From positions 1-42,567 of the IMG/VR virus record IMGVR_UViG_3300034072_002197: a stretch of DNA of 42,567 bases. One strand, given 5' to 3'. The first letter of the stretch is position 1, and each line of letters starts with the position of its first letter. The stretch comes from a virus. Positions 12,968 to 34,267 of this stretch are shown here, in pieces. Position numbers and translations under genes: made by a program. The notes under the pieces were generated by a model that saw only the letters and a list, made by a program, of their open reading frames with translations, ran no database searches and was not told where the DNA came from.

Positions 12968-12968
12968 C

Positions 12969-17192: not shown

Positions 17193-17221
17193 ACTTCAAT
17201 CCTCCCAACCGGAGCACGATC

Positions 17222-18457: not shown

Positions 18458-18480
18458 AACCTAGCGTTTTCAGCACTTTA

Positions 18481-18601: not shown

Positions 18602-18621
18602 GGTCGGGCAAGGAGACCACC

Positions 18622-19046: not shown

Positions 19047-19052
19047 GGCCAG

Positions 19053-19665: not shown

Positions 19666-19813
19666 GTTGATAGGTAGCGCGTGCGCGAGAGGCGTGTCGC
19701 TCACCTTGTGGCGGCTCCACGCGCAAGCTCTGCCACGACAGGACAGGGCAAGGTCGATGGACGCTCCGCTCGCTTGCGCGGCGTCGCTCCGCGCTTGGCA
19801 GATGGATAGCCGG

Positions 19814-19900
19814 GGAGGGGGGTGGGAGCAAAATGCGCCGCCCCAACCCTCCTGACCGGTGTCGGCCTGAAACTCGCGCAAAACCACATTAAATGTCCGG
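19814..19900. other. Copy of the helper cos-like region inside the element
   Basis: GGAGGGGGG (19814-19822), then an AAAAT at the same internal offset as the helper copy. CCTCCTGACCGGTGTCGGCC (19848-19867) is identical to 13003-13022. The final 33 bases differ at four positions and end in the same GTCCGG. Both copies have 34 bp between the starts of the G-rich block and the CCTCCTGACC block. No terminase gene follows here. A helper packaging signal in an element without terminase is the hallmark of packaging parasitism. Confidence 0.75.
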
Positions 19901-20042
19901 GCTTGCCTATTCTGGCTCCGGCCGCCGCGCTGCAGATTGGCCAATCTGGCGCAATCAATCTGCAAAAGCGTCAATTTCAGGTCCGCATCGGTCAGGGGCC
20001 CGATGCTCCCCCATTTTCCACCACCCCCCCGAAGGAACGACC

Positions 20043-20300
20043 ATGTCGAGCGAAACGATGTTTGAATCCGGCACCCTGACGCCTGAGCAGTACGAGCAGT
20101 CCACCATGGTGCAAGGCGAAGTCCTAGCGCTGATGAAGGGGCTGGTGCGTGAGGGCGTAGACTACCGAATTGTATCGGTGGGCGTCTCTACCGCGCTCGC
20201 GGACATGATTTCATCCATCTGCGGGGCAGGCGCGGTGCCGGTGCACTTCGCGCGCCTGTCGGCCTACACGATGCACCTGGGGCCGCCGCGCACGAACTGA
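20043..20300 (+). CDS. Small hypothetical protein between cos copy and protease 2
   Basis: 85 aa from ATG 20043 with AAGGAA 7 nt upstream. The frame extends upstream through the cos-like block, but that part is not coding. No recognised domain. It includes a Glu-rich N-terminus (TLTPEQYEQSTMVQGEV) and a helical middle. It occupies the place that terminase and portal genes hold in the main phage. A role in redirecting packaging is possible but only by position. Confidence 0.6.
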   Translation: MSSETMFESGTLTPEQYEQSTMVQGEVLALMKGLVREGVDYRIVSVGVSTALADMISSICGAGAVPVHFARLSAYTMHLGPPRTN

Positions 20301-20349
20301 GCGCGCTTGCAAATCGTCCAATTTCACCGTATTGGTTTGCTCGTTGGAA

Positions 20350-20397
20350 GCGCGGGTGTCCGCGCGACCGCACCGACTTTCTCGCGGGTGTCCGCGC
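20350..20397 (+). repeat. Two copies of a 15-bp palindromic repeat upstream of protease 2
   Basis: CGCGGGTGTCCGCGC at 20351-20365 and 20383-20397. Each copy folds as CGCGG-GTGT-CCGCG (extended to GCGCGG/CCGCGC in the first, 20350-20365). They lie in the 142-bp gap before the head genes of the element and could be RNA hairpins or operators for the head module. Confidence 0.5.
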
Positions 20398-20442
20398 CGG
20401 TCGGCTGGAAAACGAGCAATGCTCGACAGTCGAGGTGTGCGC

Positions 20443-21075
20443 ATGAACCACGTAAGCTCCCCATTTGAAATCAAGCAATTGTCCGACGGCGGCCAGATTG
20501 AGGGCTTGCTCGCCGGATTTGGCAACGTCGACAGCTACGGCGACGTCATCCAGAAGGGCGCATTTTCGCGAACGCTGGCTGCGCGTTCGCGGCCACTCCC
20601 GATGCTGTTGCAGCACGATATTACCCGACCAATCGGGGTCTGGACGCAATGGCAGGAATCGGACGCAGGTCTCCACGTAAAAGGGGAGATTGTCCTTGGC
20701 ACGCAGGATGGCCGCGAGGCCCATGCCTTGGCGAAGGCCGGGGCGCTGACCGGTCTCTCGATCGGCTATCGCGAGGTCAAAGCTGCGAAAAATCCGCAGA
20801 CGGGCAACCGGGATGTTTTCGAGATTGACCTGTTCGAGGGCAGTCTCGTGACCTTTCCGGCCAACCCATCCACATACTTGGACAGCGTCAAGTCGATTGG
20901 CGCCCCCAGCGATATCGAGGCCCTGCTCCGCGCAGGGGGGCTGTCTGGCCGGCAAGCAAAGGCCGCTGCCAGCGCAGCATGGAAAGCCTTCAACACACTT
21001 GGCGATGACGCAGCCGTACAAGCCGAGATGCGCGAGATTTTTGACCTGTCCGCCGCTCGGATTGCGGCTCTCTGA
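20443..21075 (+). CDS. Prohead protease 2 of the nested element
   Basis: 210 aa from ATG 20443 (GAGG upstream). The frame upstream is open but covers the repeats. S78-type catalytic residues are present: H58 in MLLQHDITRPIG and S106 in LTGLSIGYREVK. The FEGSLVTFPANPS segment corresponds to the VSIVTFGALG region of protease 1. The two proteases are clearly homologous but diverged, so this is not a recent copy. It should mature MCP2, which follows 14 bp downstream. Confidence 0.9.
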   Translation: MNHVSSPFEIKQLSDGGQIEGLLAGFGNVDSYGDVIQKGAFSRTLAARSRPLPMLLQHDITRPIGVWTQWQESDAGLHVKGEIVLGTQDGREAHALAKAGALTGLSIGYREVKAAKNPQTGNRDVFEIDLFEGSLVTFPANPSTYLDSVKSIGAPSDIEALLRAGGLSGRQAKAAASAAWKAFNTLGDDAAVQAEMREIFDLSAARIAAL

Positions 21076-21089
21076 AAAGGACGATGACC

Positions 21090-22313
21090 ATGAAAAAGAA
21101 TTCCATTTTCCGCCCTGCGCTCGGTCCCATGACGGCCAATGAGCGCCGCCTCGGCCGCTATATCCGCGACGGCGAAGGCCACCCTGCCGCTTTGACCAAG
21201 CAGTTCACCGACGCAGTAGAAGCGAAGCTGTCTGCGCTGAGTGACGGCGTGAAGACCGCGCTCGACAAGAGCGGCACACTCGACGTCATGCGCGAGCAGC
21301 TGAAGGCGCTCGAGCAGAAGATGGCGCGCAAGCCGGGGCCGAGCGGTGAAGCCGTGGCGCCCTCTTGGGGCAGTCAGCTGGTCGAGGCGAAGGCCGCTGA
21401 GATCCATGCGCTCAAGGACGACCGCAAGGGGCGCGTCCAGATGCAGTTCAAGACCGCCCTCACCTCTGCGACGTCCGATGCTCCGGGTTCCGCCGGGGGC
21501 CTGCTTGTCCCCGGTCGAGATGGACTGGTTGGCATGGCCCGTCGGCGGCTGACGATTCGCGACCTGCTTAACGTCATTCCGGTCACGACCGGTTCGGTCG
21601 AGTATCCGCGCCAAACCGGTCGTACCAACAACGCCGCGGTTGTAGCGGAAGGCGCGAGCAAGCCAGAATCGGACCTCAAGTACGATCTCGAAACCGTTCC
21701 GGTTCGCACGATAGCGCACTGGCTGAAAGCGTCTCGCCAGATTTTGGACGATGCTCCGCAGCTGCAGGGCGAAGTCGACAGCGAACTGCGGTATGGCCTC
21801 GCTCTCGCCGAGGAAGGCGAACTGCTCACCGGCGACGGCACCGGCCAGCATCTGTTCGGGATGATCCCGCAAGCAACGGCTTTTGCTACCTCGGTTTCGG
21901 TCTCAAACATGACCCGCATCGATGCAATTGGTCTTGCGATCCTTCAGGCGGCACTCACCGATGTAGAGCCCGACGGCATCATCATCCATCCGGCGGATTG
22001 GTGGGCCATTCGTTTGACCAAGAATGCCGACGGAGACTACGTCTTTGGCCCTCCGGGCACTTCGGTTATCCCTTCGTTGTTCGGACTGCCGCTGGTGCCG
22101 ACGAAGGCCATGGCCGCAAACAAGTTCCTCGTCGGAGCATTTAAGGCGCAGACCTTGTATGATCGCTGGGAAGCGCGCGTCGAAGTCGGATTTGTGGACG
22201 ACGATTTCACGCGCAATCTTGTGACCATCCTCGGAGAAGAGCGGATCGGCTTCGCGGCCAAGCGCCCCGAATCCCTAATCTACGGCGACTTCCTGTCGAT
22301 CCTCGGCGAGTAA
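21090..22313 (+). CDS. Major capsid protein 2 of the nested element
   Basis: 407 aa, HK97 fold, intact. ATG 21090 gives an N-terminus (MKKNSIF) matching MCP1 (MKKNALY), with AAAAGG 9 nt upstream. The scaffold part is shorter than in MCP1 but shares ERRLGRYIRDGEGHP and MREQLKALEQKMARKPG. The body shares LAEEGELLTGDGTGQHL. The end NLVTILGEERIGFAAKRPES then LIYGDF aligns without gaps to the MCP fragment behind integrase 2. At the position equivalent to the attachment core it reads CTTGTGAC rather than CTTTACAC, so it should not be a target for integrase 2. Confidence 0.93.
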   Translation: MKKNSIFRPALGPMTANERRLGRYIRDGEGHPAALTKQFTDAVEAKLSALSDGVKTALDKSGTLDVMREQLKALEQKMARKPGPSGEAVAPSWGSQLVEAKAAEIHALKDDRKGRVQMQFKTALTSATSDAPGSAGGLLVPGRDGLVGMARRRLTIRDLLNVIPVTTGSVEYPRQTGRTNNAAVVAEGASKPESDLKYDLETVPVRTIAHWLKASRQILDDAPQLQGEVDSELRYGLALAEEGELLTGDGTGQHLFGMIPQATAFATSVSVSNMTRIDAIGLAILQAALTDVEPDGIIIHPADWWAIRLTKNADGDYVFGPPGTSVIPSLFGLPLVPTKAMAANKFLVGAFKAQTLYDRWEARVEVGFVDDDFTRNLVTILGEERIGFAAKRPESLIYGDFLSILGE

Positions 22314-22320
22314 CGGAACA

Positions 22321-22395
22321 CGGCTGGCATCATCCCCCCTGCCAGCCGGGGAGCATAGGCGGCGCGCAGAAATCTCCGGTGGGCTGCGCGCCGCC
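22321..22395 (+). other. Two strong hairpins between MCP2 and TMP1
   Basis: CGGCTGGCA/TGCCAGCCG (22321-22348, 9-bp stem) and GGCGGCGCGCAG/CTGCGCGCCGCC (22358-22395, 12-bp perfect stem). Neither has a T-tract, so they are more likely mRNA processing, stability or attenuation elements than simple terminators. They occupy the place where head-tail connector genes would lie in a complete phage. Confidence 0.55.
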
Positions 22396-22418
22396 GCTCC
22401 GAACAGAAGGAATTGACC

Positions 22419-24905
22419 ATGACAACCCTTATCGGTGCGCTTCGCGTCACGCTCGGCCTCGACAGCGCAGCGTTCGAAAAGGGCGCCAGCGCTGTTGAAA
22501 AGCGCGCCAAGGGCATGGTGCGAACCGTCGAGGCTCATGGCAAGGCCATGACTGACCTCGGCAAGACCATGTCAGTAGCCGTCACCGCGCCCCTCGTTGC
22601 GTTTGGCGTGAAGTCCGTGCAGGCGGCAATGGAGTCTCGCGACGCCATGGGCCAGGTCGAAGCCGCGCTTGCGAGCATGGGGTCGGCCGCCGGGCGCACT
22701 TCAGATCAGCTTGCCGCGATGGCTGGCAACTTGATGCACAACTCGCTCTACGACGATGACGACATCCTCAGGAAGGTGACCGCTAACCTCCTGACGTTTG
22801 GCAACGTTGCGGGGGAACAGTTTGACCGGGCGCAGCAAGCTGCAGTCGATCTTGCAGCGCGTATGGGGATGGACCTGCAGGGTGCGACCCTGCTCGTGGG
22901 CAAGGCGCTGAACGACCCCATCAAGGGCATGGGCGCGCTACGCAAGGCCGGCATCCAGCTTACCGAGCAGCAGCAGCAGCAAATCAAGGCTATGGTCGCG
23001 GTCGGCAATGCGGCTGGGGCGCAGAAGGTGCTCTTGTCCGAGCTCGAGAAGCAGTTCGGTGGCAGCGCGGCAGCCGCGCAAAAGGCAAACCCGTTCGACA
23101 CTCTCAAGGATTCGGCGGCTGACTTCATGGAAGCGGTCGGGGGCCAGCTTCTCGAGATCCTGCCCAACGTTACGGCTGCGCTCACCAAGGTTATCGACGC
23201 GTTCGGTGCGCTTTCGCCCGCCATGCAGCAGGGTGTGGTCTATGGCGGGTTGCTGGCGACCGCGCTCGGCCCTGTTCTTACCATAATGGGCGCGATCACG
23301 ACCGCGACCGCGCCATTTACCGGAACCCTCGCAGCGATCGCGTCGGAACAAGGTGTCTTGGCGGCTGCGCGCGCCGGGTTCATCGGCCTTGGCGCTGCGA
23401 TCGGACCAATGCTTGCGCCGCTCGCAGCGGTCGGCGCGGCGGGCTACATCATCTACCAGAACTGGGACAAGATCGGCCCCGTAGTGTCCGACCTTTGGGC
23501 CTCGATGCAAGCCGCGCTCGGTCCGCCCCTACAAGCATTGATTTCGAACCTGACGGCGACACTCACCGAACTCTGGAACGGCCCGTTGGGCGAAAGCCTG
23601 CGCCAAGTGATCGGCCTGATAGGTGACCTTGTGGTGTGGCAGGTCAAGGCGTTCGGGCCGGTGTTCATCGCGCTCTTGCGCAGCGTGGTGGACGTGGCCG
23701 GCGGCGTACTCAGCGCGATCGGCGATGCCCTGAAGGCAGTGTCTCGATTGCTCCAGGGCGATTGGGCCGGCGCATGGGAGGCGGCAAAGAGCGCTGCGGT
23801 CAACGCGTTCAAAGCGATCAATGCGGTTTTTCTGGGATTGCCCGGCTTTGTCGCTGACGTACTAATGCGGATGGTCGGCGCTGTGAATGAGTGGATCGGC
23901 GGGAAACTCAACGCAATTTGGGAAAGCGCTGCGCACAAGATTGAGTGGGTAAAACAGCAGTTCTACGACCTGTATGACGCTGTCGTCGGTCACTCCTACA
24001 TTCCAGACATGGTCGATGGCATCGCAGCGCAGATGCTCCGCCTCGACGGCGTCATGGTCGACAAAGCTGAAGCAGCTACAGCAAAAACTAAGGCGGCCTT
24101 CCAGAAGCTGGCCGAAGAACTACAGCCGCTGATGGCGCGCCTGTTTCCTGAGGCTGTCGCGCTAAACGAGTACCGGGACAATCAGAAGACATTGGACGCG
24201 GCGCTCAACAGCAAGGATCCCCGCGTCAAACTGTCGCAGTCTCAATATGACGAGGCCAAGCGTCGGCTGCATCTCGACGGTGCGGGCCTTGATCCGACTG
24301 CTCCGCTCGGCCCCAGTGCGATCGAGGGCATCACTTCGGGCCCGATTGTGGTCGACATCGACAAAATCAATGCAGGCTTGGACCGTCTGCGCGAAACCAC
24401 GACCGGAACATCGGGGCAGGTGGGCGTGGCAACTGTTCGCATTGCCCAATCCTTCAAGGATATGGCCGACGCGACGTTGAACTCGCTTCAGAACATGGCT
24501 AGCGCAATCAAGGGCGGCGGCTTCCTTGATATCTTGGGCGCTGTAATCGGCCTAGGCCTGCAGATCGGCAGCGTCGGGGCTTTCGGGAAGGGCCTTCAGA
24601 CGAGGCTCAACAGCACGCCGAACACTACGCCGACGATTCCGCAGTATGCCAACGGCACAAACTTTCATCCTGGGGGGTGGGCAGTCGTCGGCGAGCGCGG
24701 GCCTGAAATGGTCCATCTCCCAAGAGGCTCTGCGGTGACACCAAACGAGCGACTTGGTGGCAGCGTAACCAACAACTTTACCGGCAACCTTCTGACGCCG
24801 GAATTCTGGGCCCAGATCAACACCGGGCACGCTGTTGCCGCGCAAGCTGGCGGCGAGCTGGGATATCGCAAGGTGGTCAGCAAGGGGCGGAGGCGGCTGG
24901 CATGA
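22419..24905 (+). CDS. Tape measure protein 1 of the nested element
   Basis: 828 aa from ATG 22419 (AGAAGG upstream; an in-frame TTG at 22413 is not favoured). A siphovirus tape measure with an N-terminal helical region, hydrophobic central segments (about residues 275-460) and a C-terminal tail-tip motif (GNLLTPEFWAQINTGHAVAA). Residues 3-265 differ from TMP2 at only about ten positions, and the last 40 residues are nearly identical, while the middle diverges. Tape measures set tail length and bind chaperone and tail tip through their ends, so the protein looks compatible with helper tails. No tail chaperone or major tail gene accompanies it. Confidence 0.9.
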   Translation: MTTLIGALRVTLGLDSAAFEKGASAVEKRAKGMVRTVEAHGKAMTDLGKTMSVAVTAPLVAFGVKSVQAAMESRDAMGQVEAALASMGSAAGRTSDQLAAMAGNLMHNSLYDDDDILRKVTANLLTFGNVAGEQFDRAQQAAVDLAARMGMDLQGATLLVGKALNDPIKGMGALRKAGIQLTEQQQQQIKAMVAVGNAAGAQKVLLSELEKQFGGSAAAAQKANPFDTLKDSAADFMEAVGGQLLEILPNVTAALTKVIDAFGALSPAMQQGVVYGGLLATALGPVLTIMGAITTATAPFTGTLAAIASEQGVLAAARAGFIGLGAAIGPMLAPLAAVGAAGYIIYQNWDKIGPVVSDLWASMQAALGPPLQALISNLTATLTELWNGPLGESLRQVIGLIGDLVVWQVKAFGPVFIALLRSVVDVAGGVLSAIGDALKAVSRLLQGDWAGAWEAAKSAAVNAFKAINAVFLGLPGFVADVLMRMVGAVNEWIGGKLNAIWESAAHKIEWVKQQFYDLYDAVVGHSYIPDMVDGIAAQMLRLDGVMVDKAEAATAKTKAAFQKLAEELQPLMARLFPEAVALNEYRDNQKTLDAALNSKDPRVKLSQSQYDEAKRRLHLDGAGLDPTAPLGPSAIEGITSGPIVVDIDKINAGLDRLRETTTGTSGQVGVATVRIAQSFKDMADATLNSLQNMASAIKGGGFLDILGAVIGLGLQIGSVGAFGKGLQTRLNSTPNTTPTIPQYANGTNFHPGGWAVVGERGPEMVHLPRGSAVTPNERLGGSVTNNFTGNLLTPEFWAQINTGHAVAAQAGGELGYRKVVSKGRRRLA

Positions 24906-25168
24906 TCGAACAACAAGATACCGTTCCCGCGCCTGTGTTTCAGGCGCTGGCGATGGCATTCTACTGCCTTCACGACACGCTCGTATCCAAAGGGGCGCTC
25001 GACGAGGGCGAGGTGGGGTACAATCTCAGCAGAATGAGGTCAGACGACCCGATGTTCGCTGAGACACTTCAGCGCATTCGCAACAACCTAGATTCGATGC
25101 CGTTCCGGCCACAATCGGGACCATCTCTGCGCTTGGTCGAGACTAAGGAGGCAGGTGACAATGGCTAA
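24902..25168 (+). CDS. Small hypothetical protein downstream of TMP1
   Basis: 88 aa, ATG overlapping the TMP1 stop (ATGA). Soluble, helical, acidic. The equivalent position after TMP2 holds an unrelated 196-aa tail gene that also starts ATGATCGA, suggesting a recombination joint at the end of the tape measure genes. Function unknown. Confidence 0.62.
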   Translation: MIEQQDTVPAPVFQALAMAFYCLHDTLVSKGALDEGEVGYNLSRMRSDDPMFAETLQRIRNNLDSMPFRPQSGPSLRLVETKEAGDNG

Positions 25169-25670
25169 GGTTCTTCGCGTCGTCGCCGTAGTTGCGGGCG
25201 CAGTGGCGATCGCCGTTCCCGGCCTGCAGGCGCTCGCTCCTGCGCTCATATCAGCAGGCACTGCATCCACCATTGCCACGATAGCCAGTGTGCCCGCGAC
25301 ATTGTCCGCGCTGGGCGTTCAACTCATGAACGAAGGAAATTCCCATGACCCTACAGAACGGATTCGTGCAGGCTGGCGAAGTTCGCCTCTACTCCGACAC
25401 GGCTTGGATATGCCCGGAGACTGGCGCGGTCGCGGCTTTCTTCCCAAAGGGCTTTGTCTCGCAGAACGTAGTGTTTCCCTATGCGGTAATCACGACCATG
25501 ATCGGGCCAGGCCAGTGGCCGAATCCCATGGAGCACATCGTCACGCAGGTGAACTTGGACTTGCCAGGCAACACCTCAGAGCTTCTCGATTGCCTCGCTG
25601 GATTCGCCAAGTCTTACGCGCGATCGGGAGGCCTTTGCCGCATCCTCGCGGCTTCGTTCGGGTCGAGTGA
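25155..25670 (+). pseudogene. Fragment of a tail-tip (J-like) gene
   Basis: The first 57 residues (MAKVLRVVAVVAGAVAIAVP...) match the N-terminus of the tail-tip protein at 35903 (MAKVLRGIAVVAGAVALFVP), including the ISAGTATTIATVAS-type segment. After about 25325 similarity stops and the frame merely shadows the next gene. A good AGGAGG ribosome-binding site is retained, so a short peptide may still be made. This looks like the remnant of a deletion that removed about 590 codons of the tip gene. Confidence 0.65.
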
Positions 25671-26018
25671 CGAGCGACCGCGGCTGCATTTCATCGCGTC
25701 CGACGATTCCGATTTCGCTAGGGGCTTCGAACCCATCGAATGCTCTCCTATGTGTCCTCGCACAACACCTCGCCAACATACTTGCATGCGATGTCTCAGG
25801 GCGGCTTCAATCGACAGCGCATGCTCAATCAGATCGACTCGCAGCGGTTGAGCAAGTTGTCGGCGGCTTGCGCCTTGGGTGAGGTGCATGGCGTAGGTGG
25901 GGAGGTGATGGAGATCATCGTCAGACGCGAAGGCGTTTCTGAACAGATCGTGCGAGTTTGGAACGACCGCCTCGATTGCCCCATCGATCCTAGCCGAGAC
26001 GAAGTCCTTACGGCCTGA
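25345..26018 (+). pseudogene. Tail-region hypothetical gene split by a frameshift
   Basis: ATG 25345 with AAGGAA upstream encodes a protein-like sequence (WICPETGAVAAFFPKGFVSQ ...). Near 25735 it switches to a Cys/Arg-rich shadow and ends at 25851. The sensible sequence continues in the -1 frame (25740-26018: MLSYVSSHNTSPTYLH... RVWNDRLDCPIDPS). One missing base in GAAATGCTC would explain it. It may be a true mutation, a sequencing error, or two coupled genes, since the second frame has an ATG. No equivalent exists in the main-phage tail region of this window. Confidence 0.55.
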
Positions 26019-26036
26019 GCTGCAGGCAGCGCCCTA

Positions 26037-26056
26037 CCTCCCCGGTTAAGGGGAGG
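26037..26056 (+). terminator. Hairpin after the frameshifted gene
   Basis: CCTCCCC-GGTTAA-GGGGAGG, a perfect 7-bp stem beginning 18 bp after the stop at 26018. There is no clear T-run, so termination is plausible but uncertain. The 26019-26351 gap has no credible gene. Confidence 0.45.
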
Positions 26057-26098
26057 CTTGCGCTTATGCGTCTGTGAGGGCAATGTCGTCCGTGGGCC

Positions 26099-26343
26099 TG
26101 AGAAACCCGGACCAGTGATAGCGAGTGGACCCGTTGGCGCGGTATCCGTTCGCGAATGCGAGCTTGGCGGCTCGCCTGAGGCAGCGCTTGGCGGCGCGCC
26201 CACTTCGGCTATGTAGCCGGGGGCGGCGCGCTATGTCCAGAGCGAAAGCTTAAAGGCGCGTCGGCTTGTCTCACTGGCAGGTTTCTCACCCCCGGCGATC
26301 GCCCGAAGCGGTCAACGGCCCTGAGAAAGCCGTCAACCAGTGA
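26099..26343. repeat. Three copies of a TGAGAAA...CCAGTGA composite motif
   Basis: TGAGAAA followed by CCAGTGA after 6 bp (26099-26118) and 8 bp (26322-26343), and an inverted copy with 4 bp between halves (TCACTGG...TTTCTCA, 26271-26288). They lie in the gene-free stretch upstream of the 26352 gene. They may be binding sites for an element regulator; spacing between halves is variable, which weakens the case. Confidence 0.35.
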
Positions 26344-26351
26344 GACCAAAC

Positions 26352-26726
26352 ATGTTCTATACCCCAAATTCGCCGCCCAGAGGCCCGACAGAGGCCGCTG
26401 GCGATTTCGTGGCGCGTGCACTGCCTCTCGGAGTGCCTGACAGGCCTGAAATCGCCGCGCTAGGCGAAAGCATCCTCTGCACCGCCGAATACGTCGGCTC
26501 GCTCGGCGAAGCCGTCCTGCTCTGCCTCGAAGAACTGCCCATCGAGCAACGCGGCGACAAGGTGCACCTCGCGGTCAGCCTGCTCAACCTGCTCGACGAT
26601 CAGGTGCGAATCCTGTTCGACCTCGCGGGCAAGGTAGAAGTCGCAGGTATGGAGCGCGCCGCGACCGATGCGGCGCTGTCCGACTGGATGGCCCTGAGTC
26701 CGGCAGGCACGGCCCCCTCGAAGTAA
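26352..26726 (+). CDS. Hypothetical protein next to integrase 2
   Basis: 124 aa from ATG 26352 (a GTG at 26340 would add four residues). Helical and acidic (AALGESILCTAEYVGSLGEA, then SLLNLLDDQVRILFDLAGKV), no recognised domain. A strong hairpin separates it from integrase 2. No good ribosome-binding site is seen at either start, so the start is uncertain. Confidence 0.6.
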   Translation: MFYTPNSPPRGPTEAAGDFVARALPLGVPDRPEIAALGESILCTAEYVGSLGEAVLLCLEELPIEQRGDKVHLAVSLLNLLDDQVRILFDLAGKVEVAGMERAATDAALSDWMALSPAGTAPSK

Positions 26727-26733
26727 GGCAGAC

Positions 26734-26761
26734 GTCCCGGCCGGGTTCGCCCGGTCGGGAC
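26734..26761 (+). terminator. Very stable 12-bp hairpin with TTCG loop upstream of integrase 2
   Basis: GTCCCGGCCGGG-TTCG-CCCGGTCGGGAC, twelve pairs including one G-T. It has no T-tract, so it may be a termination signal helped by other factors, or an mRNA barrier. It ends 17 bp before the integrase ATG and could insulate integrase 2 from readthrough of the head and tail genes. Confidence 0.5.
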
Positions 26762-26778
26762 AAGCACTGGAGATCAAC

Positions 26779-28014
26779 ATGGCAAGCGTGAGCAAACGCA
26801 AGTGGACCCACAAGGGCGTCGCGAGTGAGGCGTGGGTTGTGCGGTATGTGGACCGTGCCGGGAAGCAACGCTCGAAGCAATTCGACCGCAAGAAGGATGC
26901 GGACAACTACCGCACCAAGGTCGAGCACGAAAAGGCGGAGCGCGGACACATCGGTTATGTCGAGGTCAAGTCCGTCGCTGAGATTGCAAAGGCTTATGGC
27001 GCCCATGTCGATCGTCGCCTTGAAGATGCTCAGATTAAGCGCGGAACACACAAGAACATCGTGCAGGCGCTTCGCACCTCGATCCTTCCCCGGCTTGGCA
27101 AGATGCGCATTGAGGACGTCACCGCCGACCTGTGCGAGCAGTGGTTCACCGCGATCCGTTCGGAAGATGGACTTGCCGCCAAGACTGCGCAGGAGCGACT
27201 GGTAAAGCTGGGAGCAATGTTTGACTTCGCGATGCGGCGCAAGTTCGCGAGGTCTAACCCGGCTCGCGAGGCCCTGGCCAATATCGGCGGCATCAAGGCC
27301 AAGAAAATCAGGATACTCTCGCGCGATGAAATTGCAGCAATCCTGCGGGCGGCGCAGAAGCGCCGCCCCGGTCAGCATCGAAGCACGTGGCTGATGGCGA
27401 ATTGCGCGATTAACCTTGCGGCTTTCTCTGGCCTACGGTGCGGTGAAATTCTTGCCCTCCGCCTTGCAGACATCGATCTGGAGCGTCGCGTTGTGCACGT
27501 GAGGCACACGATCAACGCATGGGATGAACTCACATCTCCTAAGACCGAAAGCAGCCGACGTACTGTGCCTATCCCGGCGCACGTCGCCTCCATGCTGCGC
27601 GACTGGATTAGGGAGTATTACGTTCCCAATGACCGAACCCTCGTGTTCCGCGCGTGGCGAACACAGAACGGCAAGAGGGGAGGGGCAATTTCCATCTCGA
27701 ACTTCAACTCGGGTTACTGGCGACCTGTCACGGCTGCAGCCGGGATGGACCGGCCCGACGATCATATTCACTTCCATGCGCTGCGGCACTTCGCCGCGAG
27801 CTGGTGGCTGAAAAACCAAATGCCAATTCCTGAGGTTTCCGAACTTATGGGCCACGCCAGCCCGCAGGTAACATTGTCGATTTACGCTCACGCCATGGCT
27901 GACGATCGGGAGCGTGGCGCAGCGGTCGAGACGATGGCGCAAGCGTTCATGGGTTCACACAGTGCGCAAGAATTGCGCAACGGCCAATTTCTCTTGGAAA
28001 ATCAAGCGGCTTAG
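26779..28014 (+). CDS. int: Tyrosine integrase 2, integrase of the nested element
   Basis: 411 aa with GGAG before ATG 26779. It has an N-terminal arm-binding region with SKQFDRKKDADNY, a core-binding SAM-like domain (about residues 65-155) and the catalytic domain with R220 (SGLRCGE), K255 (SPKTESSRR), H333-x-x-R336 (HALRH), H359 (LMGHAS) and Y369 (SIYAH). All catalytic residues are present. It is not of the P4 type and is unrelated in layout to integrase 1. Its stop lies 3 bp before the attR core, as usual for integrases flanking their site. It should insert the element into CTTTACAC of the capsid gene. Confidence 0.94.
   Translation: MASVSKRKWTHKGVASEAWVVRYVDRAGKQRSKQFDRKKDADNYRTKVEHEKAERGHIGYVEVKSVAEIAKAYGAHVDRRLEDAQIKRGTHKNIVQALRTSILPRLGKMRIEDVTADLCEQWFTAIRSEDGLAAKTAQERLVKLGAMFDFAMRRKFARSNPAREALANIGGIKAKKIRILSRDEIAAILRAAQKRRPGQHRSTWLMANCAINLAAFSGLRCGEILALRLADIDLERRVVHVRHTINAWDELTSPKTESSRRTVPIPAHVASMLRDWIREYYVPNDRTLVFRAWRTQNGKRGGAISISNFNSGYWRPVTAAAGMDRPDDHIHFHALRHFAASWWLKNQMPIPEVSELMGHASPQVTLSIYAHAMADDRERGAAVETMAQAFMGSHSAQELRNGQFLLENQAA
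27962..27983. promoter_or_regulatory. TGCGCAA sites, right arm of the element
   Basis: GTGCGCAAG (27962-27970) and TTGCGCAACGG (27973-27983), the latter identical over 11 bp to the left-end site at 18593-18603. They lie inside the integrase 3' end, 35-56 bp from the attR core. Matching sites at both ends are expected of integrase or excisionase arm sites on attP. Confidence 0.55.
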
Positions 28015-28017
28015 AAC

Positions 28018-28025
28018 CTTTACAC
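28018..28025 (+). other. Right attachment core (attR) of the nested element
   Basis: CTTTACAC identical to attL. Immediately to the right ACACC-ATGC-GGTGT (28022-28035) forms a perfect inverted repeat spanning the core edge on the capsid-gene side, as often seen at tyrosine recombinase core sites. Confidence 0.82.
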
Positions 28026-28116
28026 CATGCGGTGTGAGGAGCGCGTTGCCCTGGCGATCAAGAAGCCCGGCGCACTGATCTACGGCGACTTTGACGCTGC
28101 GCTCGCGGCTGGTTGA
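28018..28116 (+). pseudogene. Separated 3' end of the main-phage major capsid gene
   Basis: In the capsid frame this reads LYT-MRCEERVALAIKKPGALI... ending YGDFDAALAAG and stop at 28114-28116. It aligns without gaps to the MCP2 end (ILGEERIGFAAKRPESLIYG). It has no start codon or ribosome-binding site of its own. Joined at the CTTTACAC core to the 5' part at 17222-18427 it gives a 434-aa capsid protein. Confidence 0.88.
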
Positions 28117-28127
28117 GCCGCACCAGG

Positions 28128-28151
28128 TGGGGGCGGTTAAGGCTGCCCCCA
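28128..28151 (+). terminator. Hairpin after the capsid gene end
   Basis: TGGGGGC-(10 nt)-GCCCCCA, a 7-bp stem followed by TCCTTT, 12 bp after the capsid stop. It is a weak terminator or an intercistronic element that would reduce expression of connector genes relative to the capsid gene. Confidence 0.45.
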
Positions 28152-28170
28152 TCCTTTCAGGAGATGAACA

Positions 28171-28461
28171 ATGGCCAAGACGGTCGATTATCTCGTCGCC
28201 CGCGAACATCAGGGCGACCGCCTAACTGAAGACGGCTCAGAAGTGCATCGCTTCATGGAAGGCGAAATTCGCAAGGCCGATCCCGCCATCGTCGCCAACC
28301 TCGTGAAGTCCGGTGTCCTCGTGGCTCCGAACGAAACGGAAGAGGAGGACGAACCGGTGGAGGAAAAGTCCGATGCTGCTCCTGCAAACAAGTCCGAGCC
28401 CGCCCCCGCGAACAAGGCTCAAGGCAAAGCTCCTGCCAACAAGTCCAAACCAAAGGACTGA
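28171..28461 (+). CDS. Hypothetical head-region protein with Ala/Pro/Lys-rich tail
   Basis: 96 aa, AGGAG 8 nt upstream. An N-terminal ordered part (DYLVAREHQGDRLTEDGSEV) is followed by an acidic stretch and an APANKS-type repeat at the C-terminus (PANKSEPAPANKAQGKAPAN). Proteins of this build often follow the capsid gene in siphoviruses. The function is unknown. Confidence 0.65.
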   Translation: MAKTVDYLVAREHQGDRLTEDGSEVHRFMEGEIRKADPAIVANLVKSGVLVAPNETEEEDEPVEEKSDAAPANKSEPAPANKAQGKAPANKSKPKD

Positions 28462-28502
28462 AACCCTAAGGCGCTGCGGCGCCGATATAAGGAACCTTTA
28501 TT

Positions 28503-28874
28503 ATGCGTCGTTTCAAGCTGACCGTCACCACGGCCGCCGATGGCACCGCAACGGCCTACACGCCTCGCCTTACCGGCAAGATCCACCAGATCGAGTACGT
28601 CAAGGATGGCTCGAACGCCTACACCGATGGCGTCGACTTCACGATCACCGGCGAAGCAACCGGCGTGGGCCTCTGGACCGAAGCCAACGTCAACGCCTCG
28701 GCAGTTCGCGCGCCGCGCATGCCGACTCACTCGCAGGTGGGTGTTGCCTCGCTTTTCGCCGCTGGCGGCACTGCCGTTCAGGTGCCGGTCGCACTCGCCA
28801 ACGACCGCGTCAAGATCACCCTCGCACAGGGCGGCAATGCCAAGGTCGGTGTGTTCCACATTCTCGTGGATTGA
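28503..28874 (+). CDS. Hypothetical head protein, possible decoration or head fibre
   Basis: 123 aa, AAGGAA 9 nt upstream. Beta-rich, with VGVASLFAAGGTAVQVPVAL and NAKVGVFHILVD. Position between capsid and connectors is where decoration or head-fibre genes sit. Assignment is by position and composition only. Confidence 0.6.
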   Translation: MRRFKLTVTTAADGTATAYTPRLTGKIHQIEYVKDGSNAYTDGVDFTITGEATGVGLWTEANVNASAVRAPRMPTHSQVGVASLFAAGGTAVQVPVALANDRVKITLAQGGNAKVGVFHILVD

Positions 28875-28970
28875 TCACCGCGGACCGGGGGGGCTCAACT
28901 CCCCCGCTTCCGAGAGCGCCGCTGCACTGTTTAGCGCGACGGCTCTCTCGCAAGCGAAAGGCCTTGATGG

Positions 28971-29528
28971 ATGGCTCTCATTCTTAGCACACCGGCCAGC
29001 ACGTTTCCTGTTAGCGTGGAAGCGGCAAAGGAGCAGTGTTCAGCCACCGGCACATCAGATTTCGACTTCATACTGCAGGGCTACATCAGCGCTGCCTGCG
29101 ACGCTGCCGAACTGTATCTTGGAAAGGCGCTGACGCAGCAAGAATGGAAGTTGGTGCTGGATGACTGGTCCAATGTAATCGAGTTGCCCCTCGGTCCGAT
29201 CACCAATTCAACTGTCGTCAGCTACTTGGACGAAAACGGCGATGAGCAGATCCTGGCGCCATCGGCCTATGAGATAGACGCTTACGGCTCGCCACCTCGT
29301 TTGCAGCCCGTGAACGGCCAAGCTTGGCCGAAACTCAAGGGCGGTCTCAATTCGGTTTCTATCACTTTTACAACTGAGCCCGCAGCTACGCCAAACTCTG
29401 TCAAGCAAGCCATCCTCATGATGGTCGCTTTCTGGTTCAGCAATCGAGAGGCTATCGGCAGCGCAATGACGGAAATTCCAATGGCTTGGCGGCACCTGCT
29501 TGACCCTCACGCGCGAGTGCAGATCTGA
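28971..29528 (+). CDS. Head-tail connector protein (gp6-like)
   Basis: 185 aa. The build matches HK97 gp6-like connectors: an N-terminal ASTFPVSVEAAKEQC helix, ISAACDAAELYLGKALTQQE, a beta region (ITFTTEPAATPNSVKQAILM) and a final helix ending in a PMAWRHLLDPHARVQI-type segment. It forms the ring below the portal. The stop overlaps the next ATG (TGATG). Confidence 0.85.
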   Translation: MALILSTPASTFPVSVEAAKEQCSATGTSDFDFILQGYISAACDAAELYLGKALTQQEWKLVLDDWSNVIELPLGPITNSTVVSYLDENGDEQILAPSAYEIDAYGSPPRLQPVNGQAWPKLKGGLNSVSITFTTEPAATPNSVKQAILMMVAFWFSNREAIGSAMTEIPMAWRHLLDPHARVQI

Positions 29529-29878
29529 TGCCGATAAAGCCGGCCGGTCGCCGCATTCACTCGATTCAGTTCCAGCGTCTTGCAGCGAGCGAGGACGCGC
29601 TGGGCGGGACCGATGGAAGCAACTGGACAGACCTTTTTTCTTCGCGCCGGCCCGCCGCGATCTATTTCGGCACTGGCGCAGAGCGAAGGGAGGCAGCCGC
29701 CGAGAAGGCGACGCTGGTTGCGACCTTCAACGTACTGGCTGACAGCTGTACACGTACTGTCACTGCCGCTGATAGAATCGAGTATGGTGGTAGCACTTGG
29801 GACATTACTTCGGTCACACCGATCGGTGGCGTAGTTCCGACAGAGTTGGATTTCACCGCCACGGCCAGCAAGGGCTGA
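29528..29878 (+). CDS. Head closure / head-tail joining protein
   Basis: 116 aa, Phage_H_T_join type: RRIHSIQFQRLAASEDALGG followed by a W-containing loop, REAAAEKATLVATFNV and TAADRIEYGGSTWDITSV. The family plugs the connector and docks the tail. Order (connector, closure, gp10-like, terminator) is canonical. Confidence 0.83.
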   Translation: MPIKPAGRRIHSIQFQRLAASEDALGGTDGSNWTDLFSSRRPAAIYFGTGAERREAAAEKATLVATFNVLADSCTRTVTAADRIEYGGSTWDITSVTPIGGVVPTELDFTATASKG

Positions 29879-29879
29879 C

Positions 29880-30305
29880 GTGGCCGATCTCAAAATGACT
29901 GGCCTTAAAGACCTTGAGGCAGCACTTCTGGAGATGGCCACCAAGGAGGCCAAGCGCATCGGCAAATTGGCGCTACGTAATGCCGCAAAGCCCATCCTCT
30001 CTGAATACAAAGCTAGGACGAAGGTTAAGACCGGCGATCTGGTGAGCAACGAAAGCGCGGGCACGCGCTTGAACAAGCGGCAGCGTTCGCTCACACCTCG
30101 CCCAGGTCCAAGCGAGATTGAAATCCATATCGGCACAGCCGACCCGGGCGGGATCATGGAAGAATTCGGCAACCGCAATCAGGTCGCCAATCCGGCACTT
30201 ACACCGGCTTGGGACAAAGAAGGTGGTGAGACTGCGCTACGCCGTATCGGCGAAGAGCTTGGCGCGGGAATCGAGCGGTTCGCAGCCCGCGCAAAGAAAG
30301 GCTGA
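29880..30305 (+). CDS. HK97 gp10-like tail completion protein
   Basis: 141 aa from GTG 29880. MTGLKDLEAALLEMATKEAK, ALRNAAKPILSEYKARTKVK, then EFGNRNQVANPALTPAW are typical of the HK97 gp10/minor tail completion family, which acts at the head-tail interface. It begins 1 bp after the previous stop. Confidence 0.88.
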   Translation: MADLKMTGLKDLEAALLEMATKEAKRIGKLALRNAAKPILSEYKARTKVKTGDLVSNESAGTRLNKRQRSLTPRPGPSEIEIHIGTADPGGIMEEFGNRNQVANPALTPAWDKEGGETALRRIGEELGAGIERFAARAKKG

Positions 30306-30308
30306 AGA

Positions 30309-30716
30309 ATGGCACTCGAGGAAGCGCTGGTTGCGCGCGTAAAAACGGCCGCGGGCGTCGAAGCGATGATCGATGAGCCGAACCGGATCACATACTTTGA
30401 GCGGGTGAGGGGGGCTGGTCTTCCGGCGATTTCCATCCTCACCGTCTCGATCACCGATGGATGGACGCACGACGGCGCCAATGGCTTCGACTGGGTGCGC
30501 GTCCGGTTCGATATCTGGGCTGCGAAACGCACTGATGCGGTCGAACTCGGCCGGTTGATCCGCGCAGACATGCAGGTCGCCAAGGAAATATCCGGCGTGC
30601 GTTTTCAGCGCGCGGAGCGGTTGGCACAGCGGAATATTGACGAGGGCGAACAAGAGGGCGGTGGGGAGCTTTTCCGGCTGCAGCAAGAGTACGGCTTTTA
30701 CTACGAGGAGCTTTGA
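30309..30716 (+). CDS. Tail terminator-type protein (DUF3168)
   Basis: 135 aa. MALEEALVARVKTAAGVEAM and a beta core (TYFERVRGAGLPAISILTVS, FDWVRVRFDIWAAK) match DUF3168, the tail terminator / tail completion family that caps the tail tube. Ends QEYGFYYEEL. Confidence 0.82.
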   Translation: MALEEALVARVKTAAGVEAMIDEPNRITYFERVRGAGLPAISILTVSITDGWTHDGANGFDWVRVRFDIWAAKRTDAVELGRLIRADMQVAKEISGVRFQRAERLAQRNIDEGEQEGGGELFRLQQEYGFYYEEL

Positions 30717-30718
30717 AC

Positions 30719-31156
30719 ATGACGGACCAGGCCAAGAATTCGTTCGGCGCCGAACTGTGGATGGGGCCCGCAGGCGGCACCCTGGTAAAGATCGCGGAAC
30801 TGACATCTGTCACGCCGCCCAAGCGCTCGCGCGGCACGAAGGACGTAACCACCCATGACAGTCCGGGTGGCGCGCAGCAGTTCATCGCGTCGGGCATTTA
30901 TGATTCCGGCGAGTTCGGCGGCGCGGGCAACTACATCGCTGGCAGCGCCAGCGACGACCTCCTCACCGCTGCACTGATCGACGGCGAGACGCGCGACTTC
31001 AAGTATGTCTCGAAGGGCGCAGATGATACCTTCGATTCCGCCTTCTCCGGCATCCTGACCGACTACGGCGTTGACGAACTTCCGGTCGACGGCGTGCAGA
31101 CCTTCACCTTTGGTGGCAAGGTAACCGGCGAAATCACGCAGGCGGCGTCGGCCTGA
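30719..31156 (+). CDS. Major tail protein (tube)
   Basis: 145 aa from ATG 30719 with GAGGAG upstream (in-frame TTG at 30713 rejected). TP901-1/phi13-type tube subunit: GAELWMGPAGGTLVKIAELT near the start, THDSPGGAQQFIASG and DYGVDELPVDGVQTFTF, GKVTGE near the end. It polymerises into the tail tube around the tape measure. It is the only tube gene in the window, so tails built with TMP1 would use it. Confidence 0.85.
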   Translation: MTDQAKNSFGAELWMGPAGGTLVKIAELTSVTPPKRSRGTKDVTTHDSPGGAQQFIASGIYDSGEFGGAGNYIAGSASDDLLTAALIDGETRDFKYVSKGADDTFDSAFSGILTDYGVDELPVDGVQTFTFGGKVTGEITQAASA

Positions 31157-31575
31157 TGTCGGCGCCTGATGGCCAGGTATCGTTCGAATACGATCGATGC
31201 CAGTTCACAATGGTGTTCGACATGAAGGCCATCGCCTTTTTCGAGCGCGAGGCCGACTGTTCGATCCTTGTCCCCTTGCGAGATCTGGCAAATGCGCAAG
31301 ACGATCCGACTGCCAATCCGCCTAAGCTTAGTCATGTGGCATTGCTGGTTCAGTCTGGCCTTCGTGCATTTCATCCTGAAATCTCACTCGACAAGGCGAT
31401 GAGGATGGCTTCGGATCCTGCAGTGCAGGCAGCGCTTGGTACCGCGCAGCGCGCAAGTCAGCCTCAGGCGGGGCCTGACGACAGGAGCATTGAGGGAAAC
31501 GTTCAGACGGCCACGCGATCGAAAACCAGTGGCCGTGGGAAATCCACCTCGGCCAAGCGCTCGAAGCGGGATTAA
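31156..31575 (+). CDS. Tail assembly chaperone, upstream (G-like) frame
   Basis: 139 aa, ATG overlapping the preceding stop. The N-terminal FEYDRCQFTMVFDMKAIAFF and LVQSGLRAFHPEISLDKAM match tail-chaperone G-type proteins (GTA gp10-like). A slippery GGGAAAC near its 3' end (31494-31500) lets a fraction of ribosomes enter the -1 frame to make a longer G-T fusion. Without slippage the end is basic and repetitive (KTSGRGKSTSAKRSKRD). It precedes the tape measure gene, as in lambda. Confidence 0.82.
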   Translation: MSAPDGQVSFEYDRCQFTMVFDMKAIAFFEREADCSILVPLRDLANAQDDPTANPPKLSHVALLVQSGLRAFHPEISLDKAMRMASDPAVQAALGTAQRASQPQAGPDDRSIEGNVQTATRSKTSGRGKSTSAKRSKRD

Positions 31576-31826
31576 CTGCTAGCGAATACTGGTCTGCGAC
31601 GCCGCGCATGATCGACATCGCATGCAAAGCATATTTTCGTAGGCGCGGCTGGCTTGCGTGGCACACTGCGATGCTAATTCGGCAGGACGGCAAGAGCTTC
31701 CCTTCGCTTGGTGATTTGACTGGCGAAGCTCGCAACAAGCGAACCTCGAAGGTGGTCAACACCGCCGAGCTCAAGCACAACATGAAGCTGTTCAAGGCTG
31801 CGCTTGAAGCGCGGAAAGGTGGCTGA
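31494..31826 (+). CDS. Tail assembly chaperone, downstream (T-like) frame reached by -1 frameshift
   Basis: From the slippery G-GGA-AAC at 31494-31500 the -1 frame is open to 31826: ...QWPWEIHLGQALEAGLTASE, YWSATPRMIDIACKAYFRRR... The W..H...GL...YW..TPR pattern is typical of tail-chaperone T domains. The frame has no start of its own until an ATG at 31608 in its middle. Zero-frame codons GAG GGA AAC give a perfect X-XXY-YYZ heptamer as in lambda G/GT (GGGAAAG). The stop overlaps the TMP2 start (TGATG). Confidence 0.82.
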   Translation, partial: GKRSDGHAIENQWPWEIHLGQALEAGLTASEYWSATPRMIDIACKAYFRRRGWLAWHTAMLIRQDGKSFPSLGDLTGEARNKRTSKVVNTAELKHNMKLFKAALEARKGG

Positions 31827-34267
31827 TGTCCGCTCTAATCGGTGCACTGCGCGTCACGCTCGGCCTAGACAGCGCTGCTTTCGAAAAGGGCGCCAGCGCT
31901 GTTGAAAAGCGCGCCAAGGGCATGGTGCGAACCGTCGAGGCTCATGGCAAGGCCATGACCGACCTCGGCAAGACCATGTCGGTGGCCGTCACAGCGCCGC
32001 TCGTCGCGTTTGGCGTGAAGTCCGTGCAGGCGGCAATGGAGTCTCGCGACGCCATGGGCCAGGTCGAAGCCGCGCTTGCGAGCATGGGGTCGGCCGCCGG
32101 GCGCACTTCGGATCAGCTTGCCGCAATGGCTGGCAACTTGATGCACAACTCGCTTTACGACGATGACGACATCCTCAGGAAGGTGACCGCTAACCTCCTG
32201 ACGTTCGGCAACGTTGCGGGGGAACAGTTTGACCGGGCGCAGCAAGCTGCAGTCGATCTTGCAGCGCGCATGGGAATGGATCTGCAGGGCGCAACCCTGC
32301 TCGTGGGCAAGGCGCTGAATGACCCTGTAAAGGGCATGGGTGCGCTGCGCAAAGCCGGCATCCAGCTAACCGAGCAGCAGCAGAATCAGATCAAAGCCAT
32401 GGTCGCGGTCGGCAATGCAGCTGGCGCGCAGAAGGTCCTTTTGTCTGAACTCGAAAAGCAGTTTGGTGGAAGCGCGGTGGCTGCGCAAAAGGCAAACCCG
32501 TTCGACACTCTCAAAGATTCTGCGGCTGACTTCATGGAAGCGGTCGGGGGCCAGCTTCTCGAGATCCTGCCCAACATCGCTGCCGCCGTAACCCGCGTTA
32601 TCGACGCGTTCGGTGCGCTATCACCTGGCGTGCAGCAAGCGGTTGTCGTCGGCGGTATGCTAACCGCGGCGTTAGGTCCGGTCCTCACTGTTCTTGGAAC
32701 AATCACGAGCGCAATGGCGCCATTCCTCGGCGTGCTGGGCACGGCGTTTGCCGAAGGCGGAATACTGGTCGCAGCCCAGGCTGCACTTGTCGGCCTTGGC
32801 GCCGCCTTGGGCCCCGTCCTTATTCCCATCGCGGCCCTCGCAGGGGCAGGCGCGCTCATCTATGCGAACTGGGAAAAGATCGGTCCCGTTCTATCTGAGT
32901 TTTGGCAGGCGCTGCAGGCCGCGCTCGGCCCGCCACTGCAGGAGATGGTGGCGACGGTCACCAGCACGCTCACCGAACTTTGGAACGGTCCCCTTGGCGA
33001 GGCAATGCGCACAGCTATCGGTCTGATCGGCGACTTCGTGGTCTGGCAGACGAAGGCCTTCGGCCCAGTTTTTATCGCCCTGCTGCGCGCAGCGGTCGAT
33101 GTCGTCTCGAACGTCCTTGGCGTGGTCGGCGATGCTCTCAAGACGGTTTCGCGTTTACTCGCAGGAGATTGGGCGGGCGCCTGGGATTCGGCCAAGAGCC
33201 TTGCCATCCACGCGCTGAAGGCGATCAACGCTGCGTTTGCAGGCCTCCCGGGCTTCGTTACGGATATCATGATGCGCCTTGTCACGGCGGTGAGCAGCTG
33301 GGTCGGCGACAAGCTCAACGCGATCTGGGAAAGCGCCGTCCAGAAGATCGACTGGGTGAAACAGAAGTTCTTCGAGCTTTACGACGCCGTCGTCGGCCAC
33401 TCCTACATTCCGGACATGGTGGACGGCATCGCGGCACAAATGCTCCGCCTAGACGGCGTGATGGTTGATAAGGCCGACAAGGCGACTTCCAAAACGAAGG
33501 AGGCGTTCCGCAAGCTGGCCGAAGAAGTGCAGCCGCTACTCGCGCGCTTGTTCCCTGAGGCCACCGCAATCAACGCCTACAACGCCGACACAGCGACGAT
33601 AGCCAAGGCGCAAAAGGCGGGCATCCTTTCCGGCAGTATGGCGGACGAAGCGCGGCACCGCCTCGCCATCGAGGGACGGTCGAGCGATTCCGCCATCCCC
33701 GGCATGATGGCCGACCCATTCGTGCAGGACATCAGCAAGATCAACGATGCTCTCGATCGACTGCAGCAGGGCACGATGTCCAAGGGAGGTGGCATTAATC
33801 AAGCGACCGTCCGCATTGCGAAGTCTTTCAGGGAAATGGCCCAAGACACGCTCAATTCGCTGCAGAACGTCGCGAATGCAATTCAGGGCGGCGGCTTCCT
33901 CAACATTCTGGGTGCCGTAATAAATCTTGGCATGCAGCTTGGTAGCGTCGGAGCCTTTGGGAAGACGGTTCAGACGAGGATCAACGCCCCGGGCGTGCCT
34001 GGATATGCCAACGGCACAAGCTTCCATCCGGGCGGGTGGGCGCGGGTCGGCGAGCGCGGACCTGAAATGGTCGAACTCCCTAGAGGGTCGGCTGTGCACC
34101 CTCACGGCGCTCCGGGTAGCGGCGGAGATACTTTCGTCTTCAAGGGCAACCTTCTGACGCCGGAATTCTGGGCCCAGATCAACACAGGTCATGCTGTCGC
34201 CGCTCAGGCAGGCGGCGAGCTGGGTTATCGCAAGGTGGTTACCAAGGGGCGGAGGCGACTGGCATGA
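31826..34267 (+). CDS. Tape measure protein 2 of the main phage
   Basis: 813 aa, ATG overlapping the chaperone stop. Same organisation as TMP1: conserved N-terminal 265 residues, hydrophobic segments in the middle (about 280-460), and a C-terminal GNLLTPEFWAQINTGHAVAA with a basic end (KGRRRLA). It differs from TMP1 mainly in the region after residue 265 and before the last 60. It is flanked by a complete tail gene set, so this is the resident copy. Length predicts a tail similar to that given by TMP1 (813 against 828 residues). Confidence 0.93.
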   Translation: MSALIGALRVTLGLDSAAFEKGASAVEKRAKGMVRTVEAHGKAMTDLGKTMSVAVTAPLVAFGVKSVQAAMESRDAMGQVEAALASMGSAAGRTSDQLAAMAGNLMHNSLYDDDDILRKVTANLLTFGNVAGEQFDRAQQAAVDLAARMGMDLQGATLLVGKALNDPVKGMGALRKAGIQLTEQQQNQIKAMVAVGNAAGAQKVLLSELEKQFGGSAVAAQKANPFDTLKDSAADFMEAVGGQLLEILPNIAAAVTRVIDAFGALSPGVQQAVVVGGMLTAALGPVLTVLGTITSAMAPFLGVLGTAFAEGGILVAAQAALVGLGAALGPVLIPIAALAGAGALIYANWEKIGPVLSEFWQALQAALGPPLQEMVATVTSTLTELWNGPLGEAMRTAIGLIGDFVVWQTKAFGPVFIALLRAAVDVVSNVLGVVGDALKTVSRLLAGDWAGAWDSAKSLAIHALKAINAAFAGLPGFVTDIMMRLVTAVSSWVGDKLNAIWESAVQKIDWVKQKFFELYDAVVGHSYIPDMVDGIAAQMLRLDGVMVDKADKATSKTKEAFRKLAEEVQPLLARLFPEATAINAYNADTATIAKAQKAGILSGSMADEARHRLAIEGRSSDSAIPGMMADPFVQDISKINDALDRLQQGTMSKGGGINQATVRIAKSFREMAQDTLNSLQNVANAIQGGGFLNILGAVINLGMQLGSVGAFGKTVQTRINAPGVPGYANGTSFHPGGWARVGERGPEMVELPRGSAVHPHGAPGSGGDTFVFKGNLLTPEFWAQINTGHAVAAQAGGELGYRKVVTKGRRRLA

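Follow-up and report, generated by a model that had tools for sequence, protein, structure and literature searches.

The window analysed here, a virus-collection record of 42,567 bases, is in our judgement likely to hold a temperate siphophage (the helper) together with a satellite embedded in its capsid gene, which would build chimeric particles. The satellite element is 9,590 bp long, is integrated within the helper major capsid gene and carries a tape measure gene (TMP1) of its own, which forms a mosaic with the tape measure gene of the helper (TMP2). From the sequence we infer that the element is mobile and that its virions are chimeric.

Results

The element splits the helper capsid gene

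The genes of the helper follow in the order integrase, early genes, primase, helicase, HNH, terS, terL, portal, protease, capsid, connectors, tail tube, TMP2 and tip, those outside the family searches having been named by position and homology, and the foreign DNA of the element separates the capsid gene from the connectors. The relatives point to an alphaproteobacterial host. The assigned genes of the element and the helper capsid gene all lie on the + strand, the direction of the helper late genes, and the window coordinates below are for that strand.

The 5' part of the helper capsid gene (MCP1, 17222–18435) matches Pfam Phage_capsid and is truncated relative to the C-termini of 11 relatives; as it stands, its reading frame stops at 18457 and encodes 411 aa ending in NLYTVQREVA. 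Since MCP2, the capsid protein of the element, aligns with solved HK97-type capsids through the C-terminal stretch, the truncated MCP1 lacks a conserved part. The displaced 3' end of the helper gene (28026–28116) is found just past the element integrase gene int2, where the frame NLYTMRCEERVALAIKKPGALIYGDF is the standard end of the helper's capsid family and its C-terminus aligns with the 11 relatives. At each junction there is an 8-bp core, CTTTACAC, as attL (18428–18435) and as attR (28018–28025, 4 bp beyond the end of the int2 stop). These cores were located by reading the capsid frame, and the sequence occurs only at these two places on both strands of the whole window. Joining the two parts at the core gives a 434-aa capsid frame, the end of which aligns with 11 other capsids. 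When direct repeats at the element ends were sought as shared words of at least 10 bases, only unrelated words emerged, and a search for a tRNA target in the window found none. As a control of the method, the core search was applied to the satellite 11capE, where it gave a 10-bp block at 29331/40408 of locus L148 that fits the annotated capsid split and the length published for 11capE (PMC10111431).

The record belongs to a viral collection and is not a finished isolate, which speaks for a metagenome assembly chimera of two DNAs. However, both junctions fall on one 8-bp core and the capsid gene is reconstructed across it, while ordinary assembly errors require much longer shared words than 8 bp. 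We regard such a chimera as very improbable.

Gene content of the element

A strong, intrinsic terminator-like hairpin (18481–18496; six G-C pairs, a UUCG loop and a T run) stands just inside the left end of the element; it follows the truncated 5' part of the helper capsid gene while the element is integrated and would follow int2 in the excised circle. Terminator-like sites are fewer than expected across the region (11 vs 18.3 in shuffles), the search for sigma-70 promoters gave nothing usable (1 found vs 3.9 expected) and Rfam had no match in 12400–31900.

The genes that follow begin with a small HTH protein resembling excisionases and AlpA (18622–18843; phrog_66 excisionase at E 1.6e-4, phrog_18541 at E 2.6e-9 and HTH_17 below its cut-off), a 68-aa protein of no family (18840–19046) and an HTH protein resembling replication initiators (19171–19533; HTH_36 at E 1.8e-9, phrog_1032 replication initiation at E 7.8e-14). 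At the end of the latter gene are two 22-nt direct repeats (19526–19580) that are 86% alike and are possible iterons, a likeness that could be due to chance. An 84-aa protein (20046–20300) belongs to no family, its only match being phrog_22830 at E 0.047. The prohead protease (20332–21075, with a start perhaps at 20443; Pfam Peptidase_S78, TIGR01543) and MCP2 (21084–22313; Pfam Phage_capsid, TIGR01554), which aligns with the solved HK97-type capsids to its C-terminal end, precede TMP1 (22419–24905). The stop of TMP1 is overlapped by the gene of an 88-aa protein of no family (24902–25168), followed by a fragment encoding the N-terminus of a tail-tip protein (25158–25334; 61% identity across 59 aa with the beginning of the helper gene at 35903–37834), a 128-aa protein of no family (26340–26726) and the tyrosine integrase int2 (26779–28014; Pfam Phage_integrase).

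Of the proteins scanned in the element none matched a primase. The 88-aa protein next to TMP1 matched no tail family, the tip-gene fragment being the sole tail match besides TMP1, and homologues of the 84-, 88- and 128-aa proteins were absent from all fetched loci. The large + strand reading frames in 18436–28017 are those of the protease, the capsid, the tape measure and the integrase, leaving no room for a terminase or portal. The gene in 25345–26018, which had no homologue, has a possible frameshift near 25740, guessed from the reading frames; together with the truncated tip N-terminus, the stretch 25158–26018 has the look of decay within the element.

A copy of the helper's cos-like site

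A 53-bp candidate for cos or a packaging site (19848–19900) is identical at 49 of 53 positions (92%, E 3e-15 in a self-search of the window) to a helper sequence at 13003–13055, so that the copy in the element matches the site of its own helper. The helper counterpart lies between HNH and terS, the interval in which phages with this gene arrangement have their cos; its position and the copying suggest that the 53-bp site is cos. In L149, the nearest terL relative found (89%), only the 3' part of the site is recognisable, upstream of terS at 7179–7203 with 4 mismatches in 25 positions. The 3' half (GCAAAACCACATT...) thus recurs in L149 while the GC-rich half differs, and the two halves may set a terminase-binding part apart from a nicking part. 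The cos pattern had no match in viral_contigs, and the core GACCGGTGTCGGCC, searched in other loci with up to 2 mismatches, gave scattered, chance-like matches.

The direction of the insert genes, all along the late genes, and the presence of a complete MCP2 beside a truncated MCP1 would also suit a composite that is now one phage, in which the insert is domesticated, MCP2 stands in for the broken capsid gene and a single tape measure is in use, the other being spare. We consider this quite unlikely. The displaced end of the capsid gene has kept both its frame and its conservation, as would be expected only with continuing excision or a recent insertion; the integrase, the excisionase-like gene and the cos-like copy have been retained; and a strong terminator follows MCP1.

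The two tape measure genes form a mosaic

TMP1 (828 aa) and TMP2 (31826–34267, 813 aa) are both assigned to tape measure families, by PHROGs profiles and by Pfam TMP_2, the profile search giving 43.8 bits for TMP_2 (curated cut-off 30.2) and E 8.9e-41 for phrog_27166. They differ by 15 aa in length, are 77% identical overall and are mutual closest relatives among the matches listed. The initial annotation, which had placed TMP1 in the element and TMP2 in the helper, described about ten differences over some 265 N-terminal residues, almost identical C-terminal ends, and DNA that is alike at the ends and diverged in the centre. TMP1 does lie between the att cores inside the helper capsid gene, and counting bears the description out, with 9 differences in residues 1–265. 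Protein identity is 245/250 in codons 1–250, 207/300 in codons 251–550, 135/221 in codons 551–787 and 39/41 in codons 788–828; the corresponding counts of differing nucleotides are 52 for the first 750, 13 for the last 126 and, by contrast, 284 for the 900 of codons 251–550. In 50-bp steps, the DNA identity of the two genes is 0.78–1.00 up to about position 23212, then 0.46–0.86, and climbs to 0.86–0.91 at the 3' end.

Part of the pattern at the protein level is ordinary, since the N-terminal 250 aa are the best conserved across the family (50–64% to five outside tape measures vs 19–45% in codons 251–787). The contrast is nevertheless present at silent sites, with 46/183 synonymous differences in codons 1–250 and about 269/427 in the remainder (Fisher p=5e-18), a contrast that needs more than constraint on the protein as its explanation. 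On this evidence the N-terminal block shares a younger ancestor than the centre, TMP1 having recombined with TMP2 or undergone gene conversion, much as had been proposed for the ends of TMP1. In the same codons we counted 6 nonsynonymous differences (about 567 sites) against 46 synonymous ones (about 183 sites; p=3e-22 against neutral). These are far fewer amino-acid changes than drift predicts; TMP1 has probably stayed functional and in use since the exchange, its N-terminal block being under strong purifying selection. Hydrophobic segments at 271–349 and 412–435 fall within the diverged centre of both proteins, and TMP1 has an extra one at 701–723.

The pair is thus a mosaic without the uniform pattern of a duplication. 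A simple, recent tandem duplication of one tape measure gene in a phage would agree with the mutual closeness of TMP1 and TMP2, but it has next to no probability and is ruled out by the non-uniform identity, by the contrast at silent sites and by the position of TMP1 between att sites, beside a different capsid and protease.

Relatives and other satellite-like elements

The viral_contigs searches and 385 genomes yielded no close relative of the element as a whole, and direct relatives of MCP2 and int2 were absent from viral_contigs. For int2, none of the 385 genomes of the class matched at E<=1e-40, a search that was run without a positive control and is hence uninformative. TMP1 as a single sequence recovered 5 weak loci. 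An alignment of tape measures matched 9 of 390 genomes at E<=1e-30; the 390 genomes represent one family, that of G010, reached through the alphaproteobacterium L41A, and at most 2 candidates were scored in each. Five of the matches are in ordinary phages (L061, L063, L064, L065 and L067), three (G001, G119 and G784) in rearranged units of the order portal-protease-MCP-TMP-connector-tube-TerL, and one (G010) in a locus with protease-MCP-TMP alone.

The G010 element (contig C6, 14182–24695; loci L049/L050) is about 10.5 kb long and stands alone between 17-bp repeats of a tRNA-Ser end. Its genes run HTH-X-protease-MCP-TMP-small gene-...-int, and its ends carry integrase, AlpA-like and HTH genes, AlpA-like being an assignment by reading and position with no NCBIfam match. 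Protease, capsid and tape measure are its only recognised structural genes, and within the 40 kb searched there was no match to a helper terminase, portal or connector. It shares with the window element an HTH gene, protease, capsid, tape measure, small gene and integrase in the same order. In contrast, it occupies a chromosomal tRNA-Ser site, its integrase is of another lineage and its structural proteins are only about 36–47% identical. Its capsid is closer to that of the phage in L063 (53%) than to MCP2 (47%). As the G010 capsid and tape measure are closer to those of local phages than to those of the window, we regard it as a parallel case and not as a close homologue of the window element, and the two may have arrived at their common architecture by convergence, if each satellite took genes from the helpers available to it. 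A tape measure gene directly behind the capsid gene was seen only in the window element and in G010 among the best 80 of 577 relatives and the previously fetched loci, a count that was read by eye and that includes many fragmentary loci lacking a capsid gene.

The order of genes in the insert is that of a phage with deletions, and in its right part a tip gene is cut short and a frameshift is possible in 25345–26018, as in a decaying prophage, which counts against a satellite. The insert might be what is left of another, related prophage that entered the helper capsid gene and lost most of its genes, with TMP1 a leftover. However, a full satellite set has been kept in open frames (att sites, integrase, excisionase-like, replication-initiator-like, cos-like, protease, capsid and tape measure), codons 1–250 of TMP1 show the deficit of nonsynonymous changes given above, and the trio of protease, capsid and tape measure recurs in the G010 element. 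We judge a prophage remnant unlikely.

Rearranged units of about 15–18 kb were seen at four loci, one of them a viral record (L066, 1043–18788; L062, 999–17954; L051, 529–15213; and L072). Their order is portal-protease-MCP-TMP-connector-gp10-tail terminator-tube-TerL, tail tip genes were not found in them, and an integrase lies at one end in L066, L062 and L051 and was not seen in L072. The unit of G784 (L066) has a perfect 54-bp repeat at tRNA-Thr, with copies 17.7 kb apart, and its interior gave no match to a tail tip at E 1e-3. These units look like satellites that form capsids and tail tubes. With G010 and the rearranged units, the group includes several satellite-like elements that carry a tape measure.

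Discussion

A working model of the satellite

We favour the reading of the window as a helper with an embedded satellite, for which the following cascade can be proposed. In the integrated state, helper late transcription would yield a truncated capsid and then meet the terminator at 18481–18496, while the satellite's own genes would supply protease, capsid and TMP1. After induction, int2 would excise the satellite, restoring the helper capsid gene, and the satellite would replicate. The helper terminase would then cut and package satellite DNA at the copied cos-like site, and the chimeric particle would combine the protease, capsid and tape measure of the satellite with the portal, connectors, tail tube and tip of the helper. 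Since the integrated satellite truncates the helper capsid and adds a terminator, helper production should await excision or use MCP2.

The C-terminus of a siphophage tape measure meets the tail tip. It is plausible that the ends of TMP1 are tuned to the tail partners of the helper, as the initial annotation held; these helper-like ends would fit and be refreshed by recombination with TMP2. The centre, with its hydrophobic segments, has a history of its own and may change DNA entry or allow escape from a defence directed at tape measures. In lambda-type phages, according to one study, changes in the centre of the tape measure alter the inner-membrane requirement and accompany sensitivity to SNIPE (PMC13190303). 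As a speculation, because the att site lies in helper lysogens and the satellite must enter those, a tape measure that avoids exclusion would pay.

Relation to known satellites

The founder of the helper-embedded PICIs (HE-PICIs), 11capE, resides in prophage 50icd of E. coli NRG857c and resembles the window element in several respects: a satellite lies within a late gene of the helper (capsid) and is co-oriented with it, brings a second capsid gene from the same family as well as a copy of a cos-like stretch of the helper, and measures about 11 kb (PMC10111431). Two features of HE-PICIs are directly visible in the window element, an interrupted late gene, here a capsid frame that is restored by joining at the core, and satellite genes co-oriented with the interrupted gene. 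The same authors proposed that a carried late gene may replace the interrupted one before excision (PMC10111431). The differences are as clear. In the pairwise comparison int2 and the 11capE integrase have 21.7% identity over 286 aa (E 8e-4) and so are related at the family level only, which places int2 outside the single integrase clade around 11capE. The zones of HE-PICIs are described in the order int + AlpA - Bro - replication (primase) - late (PMC10111431), whereas in the window element int2 is at the opposite end and none of the proteins scanned matched a primase. The window element has inserted close to the 3' end of an HK97-type capsid gene, 11capE at codon 80 of a lambda E gene (PMC10111431). 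The window element also carries a protease and a tape measure, neither of which is annotated inside 11capE. In the HE-PICI survey, embedded elements were found in Enterobacterales only and more were judged likely (PMC10111431); the window element, by its relatives, is not from Enterobacterales. The working plan of the element is that of HE-PICIs, while the integrase and the zone order set it outside that group.

Capsid-forming PICIs (cf-PICIs) bring their own terminase, portal and head-tail connectors. The window element shares with them a capsid of its own; unlike them, it has no terminase, portal or connectors among its large + strand reading frames (18436–28017). Some cf-PICIs carry putative tmp genes, and PLE satellites of Vibrio cholerae have their own tape measures, which are incorporated in virions whose tails are otherwise made by the helper (PMC12987554). 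A satellite-encoded tape measure is thus common to PLEs and the window element, where its use in chimeric tails is expected from the genes alone. In PLE11 the tape measure is 20% identical to that of ICP1 and differs by 95 aa (PMC12987554), compared with 77% and 15 aa for TMP1 and TMP2. PLEs exploit the lytic, contractile-tailed ICP1 (PMC12987554), while the helper here is a temperate siphophage, and the companion TAC and baseplate hub genes of PLEs were not recognised in the window element. If 95 aa correspond to about 10 nm of tail, as in PLEs (PMC12987554), the 15 aa that separate TMP1 and TMP2 amount to only about 1.6 nm; with the two proteins nearly equal in length, two tail lengths are not expected and contrast in microscopy would be weak.

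The interpretation in the initial annotation is therefore partly supported. Its account of the mosaic stands. It overlooked the insertion that splits the helper capsid gene, as well as the prohead protease, the capsid gene and the copied terS-upstream site of the element, and its view of a satellite tape measure as unusual is weakened by the PLE virion proteins and putative cf-PICI tmp genes (PMC12987554) and by the stand-alone satellite-like elements with tape measures described above. The combination of a capsid-embedded satellite and a carried tape measure was not found in searches of the open-licence papers in PMC.

The window element unites two themes that were formerly separate, the satellite inside a helper late gene and the swapping of tape measures. 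The element combines both with an unrelated integrase and belongs neither to Enterobacterales nor to Vibrio, suggesting that each strategy evolved more than once. TMP1, with its matched ends and free centre, amounts to a natural swap that bears on which parts bind tail partners and which decides membrane passage. A bolder and rather doubtful proposal is that of a convergent, non-enterobacterial class of helper-embedded satellites that break the helper capsid gene, halt late transcription just behind it and supply a replacement set of protease, capsid and tape measure. All virions before excision would then be chimeric and the helper dependent on its parasite, the ends of the tape measure being kept helper-matched by recombination while its membrane-facing centre resets the specificity of DNA entry for entry into helper lysogens.

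The capsid proteins and the proteases of helper and element are diverged throughout. Exceptions are two short, near-identical DNA patches (95–96%) in the N-terminal parts of MCP1 and MCP2 (17290–17331/21142–21184 and 17502–17556/21283–21337), which look as if they had been exchanged with the helper too.
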